A stretch of 64,000 nucleotides of DNA, taken from NCBI RefSeq assembly GCF_040947875.1, contig NZ_JBFRXN010000002.1:1240001-1304000 (forward strand), given 5' to 3'. This document shows positions 5,003-11,167 of the stretch, one piece after another. The position numbers were made by a program, and so were the translations under genes. Below the pieces are notes generated by a model. The model was not told the origin of the DNA and made no database searches. It worked only from the letters and a program-made list of their open reading frames with translations. The first letter of the stretch is position 1. Each line of letters starts with the position of its first letter. This DNA is from Pseudomonas sp. MYb118. GTDB lineage: Bacteria; Pseudomonadota; Gammaproteobacteria; Pseudomonadales; Pseudomonadaceae.

Positions 5003-6103
5003 TCAGAATTCGATCCGCACATCGCCCTTCGGCACGCTGCAGCACGACAGGATGTACCCCTCGGCTTCGTCTTCCTCGGTGATCCCGCCGTTGTGCTCCA
5101 TCTCCACCTCGCCCCCCAACTTCAACACCTTGCAGGTGCCGCAGATGCCCATGCCGCAGGCCTTGGGGATGAGCAGGCCGACCTTGGCCGCCGCCGCGTG
5201 CACGGTTTCGCCGGGAGCCACGCGAATGCTCTTGCCCGAGGAAATGAATTCCACCTGATGCAGGTCCGCCGCATCGACTTCCGGGGCATCCGCCGCCTGT
5301 TCGGCTTGTTCTACCGCGTCGGCGCGGGCCTCTTCCGGCGTGGCACCGAAGGATTCCTCGTGATAACGCTTCATGTCGAAACCAACGGACTCGAGCATGC
5401 GCTTGACCGCGTTCATGTACGGCGTCGGGCCGCAGCAGAACACTTCGCGCTCCATGAAGTCGGGCGTCATCAATTCGAGCATCTTGTGGTTCAGGTAGCC
5501 GCGATAACCGGCCCATGGCTCGCCCAGGCCGTGCTTCTCGCAGATCAGGTGCAGGCTGAAGTTATCAATGCGCGAGGCCATGTGTTCCAGCTCGCGGTGA
5601 TAAATGATGTCCTTGGGCGAGCGAGCGCTGTGGATAAATGTCATGTCGACGTTGCCGTTGGTGTCGTAGAACCAGCGAGCCATGGACATGCACGGCGTGA
5701 TGCCGACACCGCCGCTCAAATACAGCACTTTCGGCGCGGGGAAGTCGATGGCGTTGAACAGCCCGACCGGCCCGTGCACCGCCAGCTCCTGGCCTTCGTG
5801 CAGGGTGTCGTGCAACCAGTTCGACACCTTGCCGCCCGGCACGCGCTTGATGGTTACCGAGAAGCTGTACGGCACCGACGGCGAGCTGGAAATGGTGTAC
5901 GAACGCATGATCGGCTGGCCTTCGATCTCCAGCTCCAGGGTGACGAACTGCCCCGGCTTGAAAAAGAACATGATCGGCTGGTCGGCCATGAAGCAGAAGG
6001 TGCGCACATCCCAGGTTTCCTGGATGACTTTGACGCAACGGACAATGTGTCGACCATTGGCCCAGGTCTGGGTGGTTACCGGGTTCAGGAAGTTATTGGA
6101 CAT
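5003..6103 (-). CDS. gbcB: Glycine betaine monooxygenase reductase component
   Basis: GbcB passes electrons from NAD(P)H through a flavin and a [2Fe-2S] cluster to the Rieske oxygenase GbcA for demethylation of glycine betaine to dimethylglycine. The 366-residue protein has the flavin motif RSYTISSSP near residue 97, an NAD-binding GGVGITPCMSMAR near 140, and a C-terminal plant-type ferredoxin domain with cysteines in PKACGMGICGTCKV and a distal one in ILSCCSVPKGD. Start 6103 (MSNNFLNPV) has GGAGAA at suitable spacing. It is divergent from gbcA across about 280 bases, an arrangement conserved in Pseudomonas, where both are activated by GbdR. One perfect DnaA box (5629-5637) lies within the coding sequence. 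Confidence 0.96.
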   Translation of the reverse strand: MSNNFLNPVTTQTWANGRHIVRCVKVIQETWDVRTFCFMADQPIMFFFKPGQFVTLELEIEGQPIMRSYTISSSPSVPYSFSVTIKRVPGGKVSNWLHDTLHEGQELAVHGPVGLFNAIDFPAPKVLYLSGGVGITPCMSMARWFYDTNGNVDMTFIHSARSPKDIIYHRELEHMASRIDNFSLHLICEKHGLGEPWAGYRGYLNHKMLELMTPDFMEREVFCCGPTPYMNAVKRMLESVGFDMKRYHEESFGATPEEARADAVEQAEQAADAPEVDAADLHQVEFISSGKSIRVAPGETVHAAAAKVGLLIPKACGMGICGTCKVLKLGGEVEMEHNGGITEEDEAEGYILSCCSVPKGDVRIEF

Positions 6104-6384
6104 GCTTGTTCTCCACCGCCGAGTGTCGGCCTTATGTTGGCGATTCTGCGTATAGCGCAAACCGCCCATTTACCTACCAGCGACATTCACATACTTATCG
6201 CGACCAGCCCTTAACCACCGGGGGTTGCGCGTCGGGAACAGATTGGGCCATGTCGCCCATGGATAAGGTTATCGGTCACGCCGGCCCCACACTCGCCCCA
6301 TACCAAGACAGACCTTCGACACCTTGCGTAGCAACCCTGATTAGCCACTTTCGCTGGCCACACAGAATGGCCTTGAGGATCACA

Positions 6385-7683
6385 ATGATGGACGTCACTA
6401 CTACCCTGAGCCTGGGCGATCCGCTGGAACCCGCACGCAAGGCCACCGCGCAGATGCTGCAAGAACGTGAGCGCACCTTCTCGCTGCCGCAACCGTTCTA
6501 TTCGGACGAGCGCCTGTTCGATATCGACATGCAGGAGATCTTCCAGAAAGAGTGGTTGATCGCCGGCATGACCTGCGAGATCCCGGCCAAGGGCAACTAC
6601 CTGACCCTGCAGGTCGGCAAGAACCCGATCATCGTCATCCGTGGCGCCGAGGGCGTGGTACATGCCTTCCACAACGTCTGCCGTCACCGCGGTTCGCGCC
6701 TGTGCACCAGCGACAAGGGCAAGGTCGCCAAGCTGGTGTGTCATTACCACCAGTGGACCTACGAGCTGGACGGCCGCCTGCTGTTCGCCGGCACCGAAAT
6801 GGGCGCCGACTTCGACATGAAGCAATACGGCCTCAAGCCTGTGAACGTGAAGACCGCCGGCGGCTACATCTTCATCAGCCTGGCGGAAAACCCGCCGGCC
6901 ATCGACGAGTTCCTGGCCACGCTGACCCACTACATGGAACCGTACGACATGGAAAACACCAAGGTGGCGGTGCAAACCACCTTGATGGAAAAGGCCAACT
7001 GGAAACTGGTGCTGGAAAACAACCGCGAGTGCTACCACTGCAACGCGTCGCACCCGGAACTGCTGAAAACCCTGCTGGAATGGGACGACGTCACCGACCC
7101 GCGTGCCGACCAGGCGTTCAAGGACCATGTCGCTGCCTCCGCCGCGGCCTGGGAAGCGGAAAAGATCCCTTACGCCCACGCCAGCTTCGGCCTGCGTAAC
7201 CGCATCGTGCGCATGCCGCTGCTCAAGGGCACCGTGTCGATGACCCTGGACGGCAAACAGGGCTGCGCCAAACTGATGGGCCGCATCAAGAACCCGGACC
7301 TGGGCTCGATGCGCATCCTGCACCTGCCGCACTCGTGGAACCACTGCATGGGCGACCACATCATCGTGTTCACCGTGTGGCCGATCAGTGCCCAGGAAAC
7401 CATGGTCACCACCAAGTGGATCGTGCACAAGGACGCCGTCGAAGGCGTGGACTACGACGTGGAGCGCATGCGCCAGGTCTGGGACGCCACCAACGACCAG
7501 GACCGTCGCCTGGCCGAAGAGAACCAGCGCGGCATCAACTCCACGGCTTACCAGCCTGGGCCTTACTCCAAGACCTATGAGTTCGGTGTGGTGAACTTCA
7601 TCGACTGGTACAGCGGCCGCATGCTCAACAACCTCGGGGCCGAGCCTGCGCCTTACCTCAAAGGGGTAGCGGTCAGCGGTTAA
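6385..7683 (+). CDS. gbcA: Glycine betaine monooxygenase, Rieske oxygenase component
   Basis: GbcA removes one methyl group of glycine betaine, giving dimethylglycine and formaldehyde. The 432-residue protein has the Rieske [2Fe-2S] ligands as CRHRG and CHYH, near residues 97 and 117, and the mononuclear iron region with histidines in ECYHCNASHPEL near 220, followed by DDVTDPRAD. Two adjacent ATG codons (6385 and 6388) follow GAGGA; either may be used. The reading frame stays open upstream to 6106, but that part overlaps the gbcB promoter region and does not look like protein. The gene faces away from gbcB, its reductase partner. Expression is expected to depend on GbdR with betaine or dimethylglycine as inducer. 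Confidence 0.96.
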   Translation: MMDVTTTLSLGDPLEPARKATAQMLQERERTFSLPQPFYSDERLFDIDMQEIFQKEWLIAGMTCEIPAKGNYLTLQVGKNPIIVIRGAEGVVHAFHNVCRHRGSRLCTSDKGKVAKLVCHYHQWTYELDGRLLFAGTEMGADFDMKQYGLKPVNVKTAGGYIFISLAENPPAIDEFLATLTHYMEPYDMENTKVAVQTTLMEKANWKLVLENNRECYHCNASHPELLKTLLEWDDVTDPRADQAFKDHVAASAAAWEAEKIPYAHASFGLRNRIVRMPLLKGTVSMTLDGKQGCAKLMGRIKNPDLGSMRILHLPHSWNHCMGDHIIVFTVWPISAQETMVTTKWIVHKDAVEGVDYDVERMRQVWDATNDQDRRLAEENQRGINSTAYQPGPYSKTYEFGVVNFIDWYSGRMLNNLGAEPAPYLKGVAVSG

Positions 7684-7693
7684 TCGCAAAAAG

Positions 7694-7763
7694 CATCGCG
7701 GGCAAGCCCGCTCCTACAGGTTCTGCGCCAAACCCACTGTAGGAGCGGGCTTGCCCGCGAAAG
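7694..7763. repeat. REP pair, outward-facing, GGGC type
   Basis: Two REP cores of the CGGGCAAGCCCG type in opposite order to a normal REPIN (TCGCGGGCAAGCCCGCTCC first, GGAGCGGGCTTGCCCGCGA second) with about 25 bases between. It directly follows the gbcA stop. Confidence 0.9.
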
Positions 7764-7867
7764 CGTCCTTTCAAACACTAGATATCTCAAAGCCTAGAAC
7801 TGTACGAAATATGATCTATTTCATTCAGCACTAAGCCCGCCGCGCCTCCCAGCCTTCCACAAACAAG

Positions 7868-8417
7868 TTATCCACACCTCCACCCACAACAAATGGGGAC
7901 AACTGTGGATACGTCATCCATTCTGCTTGCAGAAACTGAAGAAAAACCGTGACTTATCCAAAAAGACAGCTCTGGATAACTTATGGTTATTTTTTGATCA
8001 AAGCCGTGTAATCCGCTATTCACGTGGCTTGCAAAGGATGGCGAACACGTTATCCACAGAAAGGCCAACAGACTTTGGGGGCAACTTGCGCACCGCTGTG
8101 GAAAACCGCTCAAAGACTCTGAAAACAAGGGCTCCCAGCACTTTTCAAAGGCTCAAAGGCCAATTTGGTTAATTTTCAACCAAACATCTACACGCCCCGT
8201 CCCACAAGGCCTCGACGCGACAGCGAACACCTTATCCACAGATACGCCAACAGAGATTGGGGGCAACTCCCGCACTTCGTGGGTAAAAAAACCCGTAAAA
8301 ACCGTAGCTTAGGTTGATCATTTTTCGTACGAAGGCCCGCAGGCCTTGATTGCCAAGGCCTTGCGGGAGGGGCAAACATGTTATCCACAGAAGCGTTCAC
8401 AGGGATTGTGGGTAACC
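7868..8417. repeat. Quasi-tandem array of four DnaA-box units
   Basis: Between gbcA and the next gene lies a gap of about 730 bases with no convincing gene. It contains four 37-bp units at 7868-7904, 8050-8086, 8232-8268 and 8381-8417. Each opens with a perfect DnaA box TTATCCACA on the plus strand, followed at constant distance by a core ending TTGGGGGCAACT or a close variant. Unit spacing is 182, 182 and 149 bp, so the array looks like a decayed tandem repeat. Near-boxes also occur at 7904-7912, 7954-7962 and 7971-7979. A DnaA-titration or DnaA-regulated locus is possible, but the function is inferred only from the box sequence. Confidence 0.8.
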
Positions 8418-8984
8418 TCACGGCCACTGCATCAGGTAGGCATCACCCGTCACCCGAATCATGGGATGCGGCGCGATCTGGCAGGTATCGACGATGCGAA
8501 AGCCGTGACGCTCGTAAAAACGCCGGGCGCCGGTATTGACGGCGTAGTCGATCAGGCTCAGGCCCTTGAGACCCAGCCGGCTGGCACGCTCCTGGGCATG
8601 GGCGAGAAAACGCTGACCCAGCCCCTGGCTGCGCCAGCCTTCATGCAAGGCCAGGCTGGAGATGTAGAGGGTATCGGGGATTTCCATCGTGGCGTAGGGC
8701 GCCAGCACCGGGTCGGTGGTGGGTTCGGCCAACGGGTCATGGCGCATGACATAGCTGTGCATCATGCCGATGACCTGGCCGTCCGCTTCGGCAATCAGGC
8801 AGTTCTGGTACGAGAAATCCACATCATCGCGGGCATAGCGCTGGGCGCCGACGTCGAGCAAGTGCTGCCCGGGTTCGGCGATCTGGCTCCAGATGTAATC
8901 GGCGGCGCCTTCGGAAGAAATCTGGAACAGACGGGCAATCTCCCGCGCATCGCTGCGCCGGGCAGGACGGAATTCAACGGTCAT
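8418..8984 (-). CDS. GNAT-family N-acetyltransferase
   Basis: The 188-residue protein starts MTVEFRPARRSDAREIARLF, a typical GNAT opening, and has the acetyl-CoA pyrophosphate-binding segment EGWRSQGLGQRFL near residue 118 and a C-terminal FYERHGFRIVDT block. The acceptor substrate cannot be told from sequence. Its stop codon abuts the last unit of the DnaA-box array, and a REPIN separates it from the upstream etfB gene, so it is probably transcribed on its own or by weak read-through from the dgc operon. Homologues are annotated only as acetyltransferases. Confidence 0.85.
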   Translation of the reverse strand: MTVEFRPARRSDAREIARLFQISSEGAADYIWSQIAEPGQHLLDVGAQRYARDDVDFSYQNCLIAEADGQVIGMMHSYVMRHDPLAEPTTDPVLAPYATMEIPDTLYISSLALHEGWRSQGLGQRFLAHAQERASRLGLKGLSLIDYAVNTGARRFYERHGFRIVDTCQIAPHPMIRVTGDAYLMQWP

Positions 8985-9036
8985 AGGGTGGCTGGTTCCT
9001 GGGTGGGAGACTGTGCGGAATTGCTGTGGAAATTCC

Positions 9037-9139
9037 CCTGTGGGAGCGAGCCTGCTCGCGATGGAGTGTCAGACACCGCTGGGTGTCAGGCAGCCAGCGT
9101 TATCGTTGACGACCATCGCGAGCAGGCTCGCTCCCACAG
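9037..9139. repeat. REPIN with shared-type spacer
   Basis: Inverted pair of GAGCGAGCCTGCTCGC-type REP cores. The interior is homologous to that of the REPIN at 4886-4988 and, on the opposite strand, to those at 25.5-25.8 kb. It lies between etfB and the acetyltransferase gene. Confidence 0.93.
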
Positions 9140-9160
9140 AGTTGTGCATTGTCGGTGTGA

Positions 9161-9931
9161 TCAACGCACCACACCTTCCTCGATCAACAACTTGAGGATC
9201 GCCTCGGCACCCGCCTGGGCGGACACGCCCTTGAGCACCTGCCCGCCTCCGCCGCTGGCCTTGGCCGTAGCGGCTTTCATGCGGTCGGCACCGCTCTTGG
9301 CCTTGATCACTTTCAGGCGTTTTGGCCGGGGCTTGGCCGGTTGCAGCGTGGCCACCGCCAGCAGCTCGTCGTCGATCACTTCGACATCGTCGGCCTGCAA
9401 TACCCCGCGCCGCGCCGGGCCGTAGGCACTCTGGCGGGGCTTGGGCGCAGCGTTATCCACAGTGGCCAGGAACGGCAGGCGCACCTTAAGGCGTCGCCGC
9501 TGGCCACGGGGCAACGCCTGCAGGACCAGGGCCGAACCGCCGTCGATGGATTCCACCTGCGCCAACCCCACCACCAGCGGCCAGCCCAGGCCCTCCGCCA
9601 GCAGGAACGGCAGCATGCCCGAACCTTCACCGGTTTCCGCCTGGCTGCCGGTCAGCACCACCTGGGCCCCGGCGTCACGCAAGTAAGCGGTCAGCGCCGG
9701 CAGCGCATCGGCGCCCGCCGGTTGTTCCAGCACATGCATCTGCTCCAGGCCCATGCCCAGGTACGCACGCAGCGCCGGCTCGGCAACATCGCCGGCGTGC
9801 AGCACCTGCAAGTTATCCCCAGCCAGTTGCAAACCCAGTTCCACCGCCCGCGCATCCTGCTCCGCGCGGCGTGGACGGCCGGAGGTCGGGTGGGCGCCGA
9901 TGGACACCAGGCTGACGATTTTCGTGCTCAT
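9161..9931 (-). CDS. etfB: Electron transfer flavoprotein beta subunit of the dimethylglycine demethylation operon
   Basis: This 256-residue ETF beta-type subunit begins MSTKIVSLVSIGAHPTSGRP and contains the adenine-nucleotide-binding region with QAETGEGSGMLPFLLAEGLGWP near residue 120. It would pair with the alpha subunit encoded 15 bases upstream to carry electrons from DgcA to the Fe-S protein DgcB and the quinone pool. It is the last gene of the run that begins at the dipeptidase-like gene. It is more divergent than the housekeeping EtfB, consistent with a dedicated partner. A perfect DnaA box lies inside it at 9453-9461. Confidence 0.88.
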   Translation of the reverse strand: MSTKIVSLVSIGAHPTSGRPRRAEQDARAVELGLQLAGDNLQVLHAGDVAEPALRAYLGMGLEQMHVLEQPAGADALPALTAYLRDAGAQVVLTGSQAETGEGSGMLPFLLAEGLGWPLVVGLAQVESIDGGSALVLQALPRGQRRRLKVRLPFLATVDNAAPKPRQSAYGPARRGVLQADDVEVIDDELLAVATLQPAKPRPKRLKVIKAKSGADRMKAATAKASGGGGQVLKGVSAQAGAEAILKLLIEEGVVR

Positions 9932-9946
9932 AACCCTTTCCTTCCC

Positions 9947-11167
9947 TTAAGCCGCATCGCGCTTGGCGTCGTTGCGATAAGCCGCTACCGCATCAATCAA
10001 GGCTTGAAGAAGCTCGGCGCTTTCGCCGATCACCGACAGGTCGGCCCGTTTGATCATGTCGCAACCGGGGTCGAGGTTGATCGCCACCACCTTGTCGCAG
10101 GCACCGATGCCTTGCAGGTGCTGGATCGCCCCGGAAATCCCCACGGCCACGTAGACCCGCGCCGTGACCCAGGTGCCGGAGGCGCCGACCTGCCGGTCGC
10201 GCGCCATGAAGCCATCGTCCACCGCCACCCGCGAAGCGCCCTCGGTCGCCCCCAGCGCAGCGGCAGTTCTGTGGAACAGCTCCCAGTCCTTGACCCCGTT
10301 GCCGCCGGAGAAAATGAACTCGGCTTCGGCCATCGGAATCGCCGCCGGGTCCACGGCCACCGCGCCCAGGTCCTCGATGCGCGACAAGCTGCGCGCCACG
10401 CTTGTGGATAACTCCACCGGCAAGGCTTCGTGACGGGTTTCGCTGACCGGTTCGGCACATTCAACGGCACCGAGGATCAGCCGCGCGACAGGGCGTGCTA
10501 TGTCCTGCAAGCCGGCACCGGCACGGCCGATGCATTGCTCATCCTTGACCTGCCAGACCCGCGTCGCCGGGCGTTCGCCGACGGCGGCAGCGAAGCGCCG
10601 ACCCAGTTCGCCACCGCCCGTGCGGCTGTCCGGCAGCAGCCAGTGCCGGGGGCTGAACTGGTTATCCACAGCCCGCAGGGCCTGGATGCGTTGCTCCGGT
10701 GCATAACCGCTGTATTCGTCGCCCTCGAGCACCAGCAGGCGATCGACGCCGGCCGTGGCGAAAGCGCTTTCCTTGTGTTCGCCGAACACCACCGCCAACA
10801 CGGCGCCGTCCTGGCCGGCCAACTGGTGCGCCAAGCCGAGCAAGTCGCGGTCGTGGCTGCTCAGCCGGCCGCCGACCATGTCCGGCACCACGCTGATGTA
10901 GAACGCCGGCGCGGGCACCTGATGCAGCGGCAGTTGCACTTCCACGCTGGCCGAGTGCTTGGCACCGCCGCCCTGCTGGGCGCCGCTGCGGTCAATGCGC
11001 TTGATGCCGTTGGGGCCGATAAAGCCGATGCCGTGCAGGTTCTTGCGGATGACGCCATTGGGCCCCATCCAGCTGTGCTGCGCCGGTTGCATGGCCGCAT
11101 GCAGCGGGTGCAGGCGGTTACGGGCAATCCATTCGGCACGGGGGTCGCGGCGGATAATGTCGCTCAT
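9947..11167 (-). CDS. etfA: Electron transfer flavoprotein alpha subunit with N-terminal extension
   Basis: The C-terminal half carries the ETF-alpha FAD signature: RQVGASGTWVTARVYVAVG near residue 310, then ISGAIQHLQGIGACDKVVAI and NLDPGCDMIKRADLSVIGE. At 406 residues it is about 90 longer than a usual ETF alpha. The extra N-terminal part (about residues 1-85) includes two similar segments, WMGPNGVIRKNLHGIG and FIGPNGIKRIDRSG, of unknown function. The ATG overlaps the dgcB stop by one base, showing tight coupling. With EtfB it should accept electrons from dimethylglycine demethylase. Two perfect DnaA boxes (10403-10411 and 10672-10680) fall within the gene. Confidence 0.9.
   Translation of the reverse strand: MSDIIRRDPRAEWIARNRLHPLHAAMQPAQHSWMGPNGVIRKNLHGIGFIGPNGIKRIDRSGAQQGGGAKHSASVEVQLPLHQVPAPAFYISVVPDMVGGRLSSHDRDLLGLAHQLAGQDGAVLAVVFGEHKESAFATAGVDRLLVLEGDEYSGYAPEQRIQALRAVDNQFSPRHWLLPDSRTGGGELGRRFAAAVGERPATRVWQVKDEQCIGRAGAGLQDIARPVARLILGAVECAEPVSETRHEALPVELSTSVARSLSRIEDLGAVAVDPAAIPMAEAEFIFSGGNGVKDWELFHRTAAALGATEGASRVAVDDGFMARDRQVGASGTWVTARVYVAVGISGAIQHLQGIGACDKVVAINLDPGCDMIKRADLSVIGESAELLQALIDAVAAYRNDAKRDAA

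Follow-up and report, generated by a model that had tools for sequence, protein, structure and literature searches.

What is the function of an intergenic DnaA-box array that lies about 0.5 Mb from dnaA in the Pseudomonas chromosome? The window, which is the whole stretch of 64,000 nucleotides from Pseudomonas sp. MYb118 that was analysed, has four perfect copies of the DnaA box TTATCCACA at 7868, 8050, 8232 and 8381, all on the + strand and with start-to-start spacings of 182, 182 and 149 bp. These positions and spacings were given in a preliminary description of the DNA and are confirmed by direct count. Comparative analysis suggests that the interval 7802-8415 is probably a four-module, helically phased, Fis-linked DARS-like element, which would regenerate ATP-DnaA.

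Setting and modular structure of the array

The window has eight exact DnaA boxes, all inside 5629-10670, while 100 shuffles of the window give a mean of 0.05 and a maximum of 1. Genome-wide there are 124 exact copies of TTATCCACA versus 18 for the control pattern read backwards. The array sits between gbcA (+ strand, ending at 7683; NCBIfam NF058607) and the gene of a GNAT acetyltransferase (- strand, stop at 8418; Pfam), and is flanked by the 3' ends of these two convergent genes. DnaA and Fis are able to act as transcription regulators, and a DnaA-controlled promoter region had been one of the initial suggestions. Since the array is located between two gene ends, it is very unlikely to serve gbcA or its neighbours as a DnaA-responsive promoter or terminator. 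The array also persists, with unchanged spacing, where relatives have about 1-5 kb of additional DNA between it and the acetyltransferase gene. At gathering thresholds no Rfam family matches in the window. By eye, inverted repeats of the REP kind (gcgggcaagcccgctcctacag and gtgggagcgagcctgctcgcg types) flank the array region at 7695-7762 and 9041-9140.

Each unit is 35 bp long (9+3+9+5+9) and consists of box III (TTATCCACA), 3 bp, box II (ending in ACA), 5 bp and an inverted box I. At an equal distance of 16 bases 3' of each TTATCCACA stands ATGGGGACAACT, TTGGGGGCAACT (in two units) or TTGTGGGTAACC. A second conserved part of every unit starts about 65 bp upstream of box III, which places the start of the element near 7802. 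The repeated unit first described is real, and its extent is better taken as the 35-bp core together with this upstream part. In the spacer alignment the upstream part appears as a T-rich inverted repeat, TTGATCA-N5-TGATCAA, preceding each next unit, and it resembles a Fis site. It was compared with a loose Fis form, GNNYRNNWNNYRNNC, and with a stricter published form. The cores were scored with R1, a sequence-only profile from 88 Pseudomonas units, which were chosen from 145 (141 distinct listed units and the four of the window).

In module 1, the Fis-type site GTACGAAATATGATC (7802..7816; no strand is assigned to these sites) matches the loose form fully at -66 from box III, with one mismatch to the stricter form, and a match at -65/-66 of unit 1 is found in 72 of the 73 four-unit arrays of relatives. 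Core 1 (7868..7902, + strand) has CCACCCACA as box II and an inverted box I (TTGTCCCCA), and scores 40.1 bits with R1. The site of module 2, GGTTATTTTTTGATC (7985..7999), matches both forms in full at -65 and is present in 73/73 arrays; core 2 (8050..8084, + strand; II AGGCCAACA, inverted I TTGCCCCCA; 56 bits) is followed downstream by an extra DnaA box on the - strand, TTTTCCACA (8097..8105), each base of which is conserved in 90% or more of the 74 arrays aligned. In modules 3 and 4, the sites GGTTAATTTTCAACC (8167..8181) and GATCATTTTTCGTAC (8316..8330) both match the loose form fully at -65, differ from the stricter form by one mismatch and are present in 72/73 arrays each. The dyad of the module 3 site is kept even though its letters depart from the consensus. 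Core 3 (8232..8266, + strand) combines box II ACGCCAACA with inverted box I TTGCCCCCA (56.6 bits), and core 4 (8381..8415, + strand) combines GCGTTCACA with inverted TTACCCACA (49.5 bits) and ends two bases from the end of the convergent acetyltransferase gene. All four cores begin with TTATCCACA as box III, which is the strong box of the array; boxes II and I are degenerate, as exemplified by AGGCCAACA and TTGCCCCCA.

Conservation and helical phasing among relatives

A chain of boxes at 140-200 bp spacing is present in 71 of 80 named relatives, which were fetched via the acetyltransferase gene. The relatives without a chain are L093, L094, L099, L100, L103, L105 and L110, with L083 and L091 cut short. 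Relative L092 has two chains of units (three at 8620-8857 and two at 10374-10803), as if the array were partly duplicated. A box pair 177-189 bp apart occurs in 198/298 genus genomes; in the backwards-pattern control no entry other than 0 was noticed. Altogether 102 Pseudomonas arrays were compared (two regions are counted twice), of which 73 have four units. Conservation is genus-wide, with R1 matches in 294/298 genus genomes (E <= 1e-4).

The unit consensus is approximately GCGAACA-NN-TTATCCACA-GA..CGCCAACAG..ATTGKGGGCAA, with conservation extending well outside the DnaA box. As a perfect first box was the search condition, only the remaining columns count as independent evidence. Among the 88 aligned units, the ACA of box II and one G and the AA of box I are invariant. 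The initial idea that only the DnaA box is selected while the rest has decayed is too narrow, since conservation also covers boxes II and I, the Fis-type site and the helical phasing of the spacers.

Conservation also extends to DnaA boxes in the neighbouring genes. The box in etfB (9453..9461, + strand) spans GTG, GAT and AAC codons kept in 71, 69 and 68 of 71 loci, and is fixed except for its ninth base, which varies (ACT in 53/71 loci). Of the two boxes in etfA, the one at 10403..10411 (- strand) has TTA in 71/71, TCC in 70/71 and ACA in 71/71 loci (Leu TTA, Thr ACA), and the one at 10662..10670 (+ strand) has GTG in 70/71, GAT in 71/71 and AAC in 71/71, preceded by GCT in 66/71. The codon-level comparison of relatives reveals no special conservation of the box at 5629 in gbcB.

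The spacings provide a further constraint. In 90 arrays of relatives with at least three units, they take only the values 150-151, 158-161, 170-172, 181-184 and 192-193 bp, in steps close to a full helical turn; the window has 182, 182 and 149 bp. At 10.5 and 10.6 bp per turn the phase concentration is 0.957 and 0.961, respectively. None of 5000 Monte Carlo trials reached the observed phasing, which overstates the significance, since neither adjacent spacing values nor related genomes are independent data and two regions were entered twice. Length changes of near whole turns suggest that the modules lie on the same side of the DNA and contact each other or a common complex. Outside this array the rule is less strict: the spacing at a second locus of the genome (locus B below) is 183-187 bp in relatives and 202 bp here, and the pair in L145 is 177 bp apart.

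Fis-type sites and cores at other loci

In its own genome the array (locus A, four cores) is one of five loci with ten cores in all. The six cores outside the array are in four other places: locus B (C2:2,467 kb, two cores, between an SDR and a yigZ gene), locus C (C2:931.6 kb, one core), locus D (C2:2,341 kb, two cores) and locus E (C4:7304-7338, L240, one core). Loci A-D lie on either side of dnaA, at distances of up to about 0.83 Mb. At locus E boxes II and I are perfect and the Fis-type site is at -66; among the ten cores found, that of locus E is closest to the E. coli form. Together with its Fis-type site it is kept in two relatives (L241, L242). The gbcA-etfB neighbourhood of locus A is retained in another genus (L193, L198), and cores adjoin yigZ in L189 and L202.

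The inverted repeat starts at -67/-68 from box III in the nine own-genome cores with R1 E below 0.002, and in these nine it matches GNNYRNNWNNYRNNC fully at -65 or -66. The Fis-type site lies outside the R1 columns. Locus E, the tenth core, and its copies in two relatives also have the match, and these sites were unused in defining the motif; the palindromic pair of locus E allowed two orientations, and the match appears only in the one with the box-III-like CTGTTCACA. Overall, the loose form is present at -65/-66 in 10/10 own cores, 348/354 distinct Pseudomonas units, 22/25 cores from other genera of the family and 14/24 class cores, where the family and class cores are those that passed a strict register filter (from 20/26 and 23/28 loci, the other loci being dropped). 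The corresponding background per offset pair is 3.81 matches for the Pseudomonas units, a value inflated by neighbouring modules, 0.24 for the family and 0.05 for the class. With up to one mismatch allowed, the form is found in 24/25 family and 21/24 class cores. The stricter form is matched fully in 120/354 Pseudomonas units, 8/25 family and 11/24 class cores; in the own genome 2/10 cores match it fully and 8/10 with one mismatch. Judging from motif and position, Fis may bind at this fixed-offset site. A Fis homologue (57% identical over residues 21-96, E 2.7e-24) is encoded in the genome, as are DnaA and Hda. An FNR/Anr box was considered for the TTGATC..GATCAA element and rejected, since the distance between the half-sites is wrong for that motif.

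Two other readings of the array can be weighed against these observations. The four units do resemble an old tandem duplication, and an ordinary decayed tandem or interspersed repeat without function would explain that resemblance. This reading has a negligible probability, being contradicted by genus-wide conservation, phase-preserving indels, fixed offsets and the same layout in four other genome places. A unit scattered through the genome as an interspersed repeat was looked for and was not what was found; the six further cores in four places all have the Fis-core layout. The array could also serve chromosome architecture, Fis and DnaA forming a nucleoprotein site that would bend and bridge the DNA near the origin, with DnaA nucleotide exchange secondary or absent. 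Helical phasing across modules and the Fis-type site at a fixed offset are in line with such a site. However, we regard it as improbable, as the class-wide DARS core register, usually with one or two matches per genome, would need a separate reason.

That register is widespread. By eye, about 245 of the 298 genus genomes show five or more R1 matches; four genus genomes (G028, G054, G116 and G162) lack a core at E <= 1e-4 and are possible loss lineages. At E <= 1e-3, R1 matches 44/59 family genomes (40/54 outside the genus), and it matches 87/232 class genomes (85/230 outside the family), with rough E-values and with some class matches partial, for example over profile positions 5-32 or 6-40. 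Of the 28 class loci fetched, most read [ATCCACA GAG TTATCCACA GATTT TGTGGATAA] or close variants on one strand, and many of the best have near-perfect boxes II and I. In a search of the 232 class genomes for perfect head-to-head pairs TTATCCACA..TGTGGATAA with gaps of 0-20 allowed, the gap is 5 in 73 of the 75 places listed (of about 142; by eye), and the remaining two have a gap of 17, which is the III-to-I distance. In a later phylum sample, 35 of the 49 gammaproteobacterial places listed have gap 5 by eye, six of which look like one place (locus E) in six genus genomes; one genus adds pairs with gap 9-10. Outside Gammaproteobacteria, head-to-head pairs with other, varied gaps are common.

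The core was also compared with origin DNA. No dnaA, dnaN or rpmH was found in any of the 55 family and class loci that were fetched (each of about 3 kb, about 1.5 kb on either side). An oriC-type unit was rejected, as the dnaA-rpmH gap of the own genome has no R1 match up to E 10 and by eye contains boxes in tandem but no core. A 54-kb stretch around dnaA/oriC (C2:1729701-1783672) contains 34 of the 124 exact TTATCCACA copies of the genome, among the 100 of 124 places listed; this box-rich stretch could be a titration zone comparable to the one described close to E. coli oriC (PMC12371093).

Comparison with E. coli and the proposed role

The four units of the window and the six further cores have the three boxes of a DARS, with II and III in tandem and I head-to-head with II, and the 3- and 5-bp gaps of E. 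coli DARS1 (TAATACACA TGG TTATCCACA GGAAT AGTGGATAA) and DARS2 (TTCTTCACA ACT CTATCCACA GAAAA GGTGAATAA), whose box order and orientation are also the same. The head-to-head I/II pair has been described as a hallmark of DARS that is essential to their function (PMC10380432). The array further resembles DARS2, as described, in having Fis-type sites outside the core and extra DnaA boxes (PMC4245941), and Fis is reported to be required at DARS2 together with IHF (PMC4245941; PMC8682772). According to one account, many proteobacterial species have conserved DARS-like sequences (PMC10380432); another describes the DARS2 core as specifically conserved in E. coli-related gammaproteobacteria (PMC4245941), and for its accessory part a study of conservation covered seven species close to E. 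coli (PMC8682772).

Several differences count against the DARS-like reading. DARS1 is a single core with near-perfect, strong boxes II and I, and DARS2 is one core with a strong box II and other gene neighbours, whereas the Pseudomonas array has four cores in which box III is strong; boxes II and I, degenerate at locus A, are perfect at locus E. R1 aligns weakly, in the II-5-I register, to DARS1 (8.9 bits, E 0.016 in 15 kb) and DARS2 (7.3 bits, E 0.055 in 15 kb), and lone boxes in those E. coli stretches score 12.8, 8.1 and 7.8 bits. DARS1 and DARS2 have no Fis match at -65/-66 (3-4 mismatches); their full loose matches are at +133 in DARS1 and at -125 and +143 in DARS2, and in the own genome the stricter form is full at only two of the ten sites. 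IHF, needed at DARS2, has there a site, IBS1-2, which by implication lies between the core and FBS2-3 (PMC4245941). In the spacers of the array no IHF consensus (WATCAANNNNTTR) occurs at a consistent position; as the best matches are mostly two mismatches off and vary in position, no IHF site is claimed. The array is also outside the E. coli DARS neighbourhoods. None of bioD, uvrB, rppH, mutH and ygdQ, from the DARS1 and DARS2 neighbourhoods, is found in the 55 family and class loci, and orthology to those neighbourhoods was rejected on that ground.

The distance from the origin is in turn more like that of datA. The array is about 506 kb from dnaA (C2:1,754,649), and the distance is 358-649 kb (median 521 kb) in 31/31 complete genomes, which were hand-picked as listing the array on a single contig; their sizes are rounded, and their arrays were assigned to locus A by unit sequence, with neighbours checked only for G015. 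This position is comparable with that of datA near oriC (PMC10380432), and both are intergenic, origin-proximal DnaA-box clusters. Together with the degenerate boxes II and I, it keeps a DnaA sink or inactivation site as the main rival: as a sink or ATP-hydrolysis site like datA, the array would capture DnaA on its strong boxes III shortly after its own duplication, thereby delaying re-initiation. The single perfect box of each unit, the conserved boxes in etfA and etfB and the concentration of exact boxes around dnaA are compatible with titration. Nevertheless, we consider a sink unlikely, though less so than an architectural role, because simple titration leaves the head-to-head II-5-I register, the class-wide cores and the fixed Fis-type site unexplained. 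The design of datA, with essential DnaA boxes set at fixed spacing around one IHF site, is described as IHF-centred (PMC10380432), whereas no consistently placed IHF consensus accompanies the Pseudomonas boxes. R1 finds at datA only short single-box matches and no head-to-head II-5-I core. The high-density DnaA-box region near E. coli oriC likewise has many origin-close boxes and possible titration, but it is described as motif density rather than as phased modules, and the word 'Pseudomonas' is absent from the main text of that account (PMC12371093). The early suggestion of a non-oriC locus of the datA or DARS kind is thus well supported by box architecture, genus-wide conservation and the similar distance from dnaA in the 31 chosen genomes; as to which kind, the architecture points to DARS and not to datA.

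In the DARS-like reading, a module consists of a Fis-type site, whose first base is 65-66 bp before the core, and the three-box core itself, with tandem boxes III and II and with box I facing II head-to-head. If the module works as DARS2 does, upstream-bound Fis would aid the assembly of ADP-DnaA on the core, and the head-to-head II/I pair would drive the release of ADP. The apo-DnaA would then leave and rebind ATP, raising the level of ATP-DnaA before initiation. The four modules, on one helical face, may cooperate, and with their location some 0.5 Mb from oriC their dosage would be tied to replication and would thereby affect its timing.

DARS is already known as a class of site. The features that appear to be new are the phasing of four modules in one array, the set of five loci in Pseudomonas, and, outside E. 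coli, a fixed geometry of Fis-type site and core. In the literature searched, by titles and abstract openings, there is no description of a DARS, DnaA-box cluster or DnaA titration locus of such a kind in Pseudomonas, nor an account of control of Pseudomonas DnaA activity away from oriC. An evolutionary path can be proposed tentatively. The ancestral gammaproteobacterial DARS may have had a Fis site about six helical turns upstream of a III-3-II-5-I core, an arrangement lost or rearranged in E. coli DARS1 and DARS2. In Pseudomonas this module would have been multiplied to give, near the origin, four helically phased copies that serve as one cooperative reactivation hub, backed by the four further DARS-like loci.

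The array suggests how Pseudomonas may time chromosome replication, naming concrete sites and predicting Fis as a co-factor with fixed geometry. It provides a simple rule for DARS-like sites across Gammaproteobacteria, a Fis-type site at -65/-66 of a III-3-II-5-I core. The relatives, whose spacings change by about whole turns and show no half-turn values in the 90 arrays, offer a natural test of the interaction of DnaA sites over about 180 bp.
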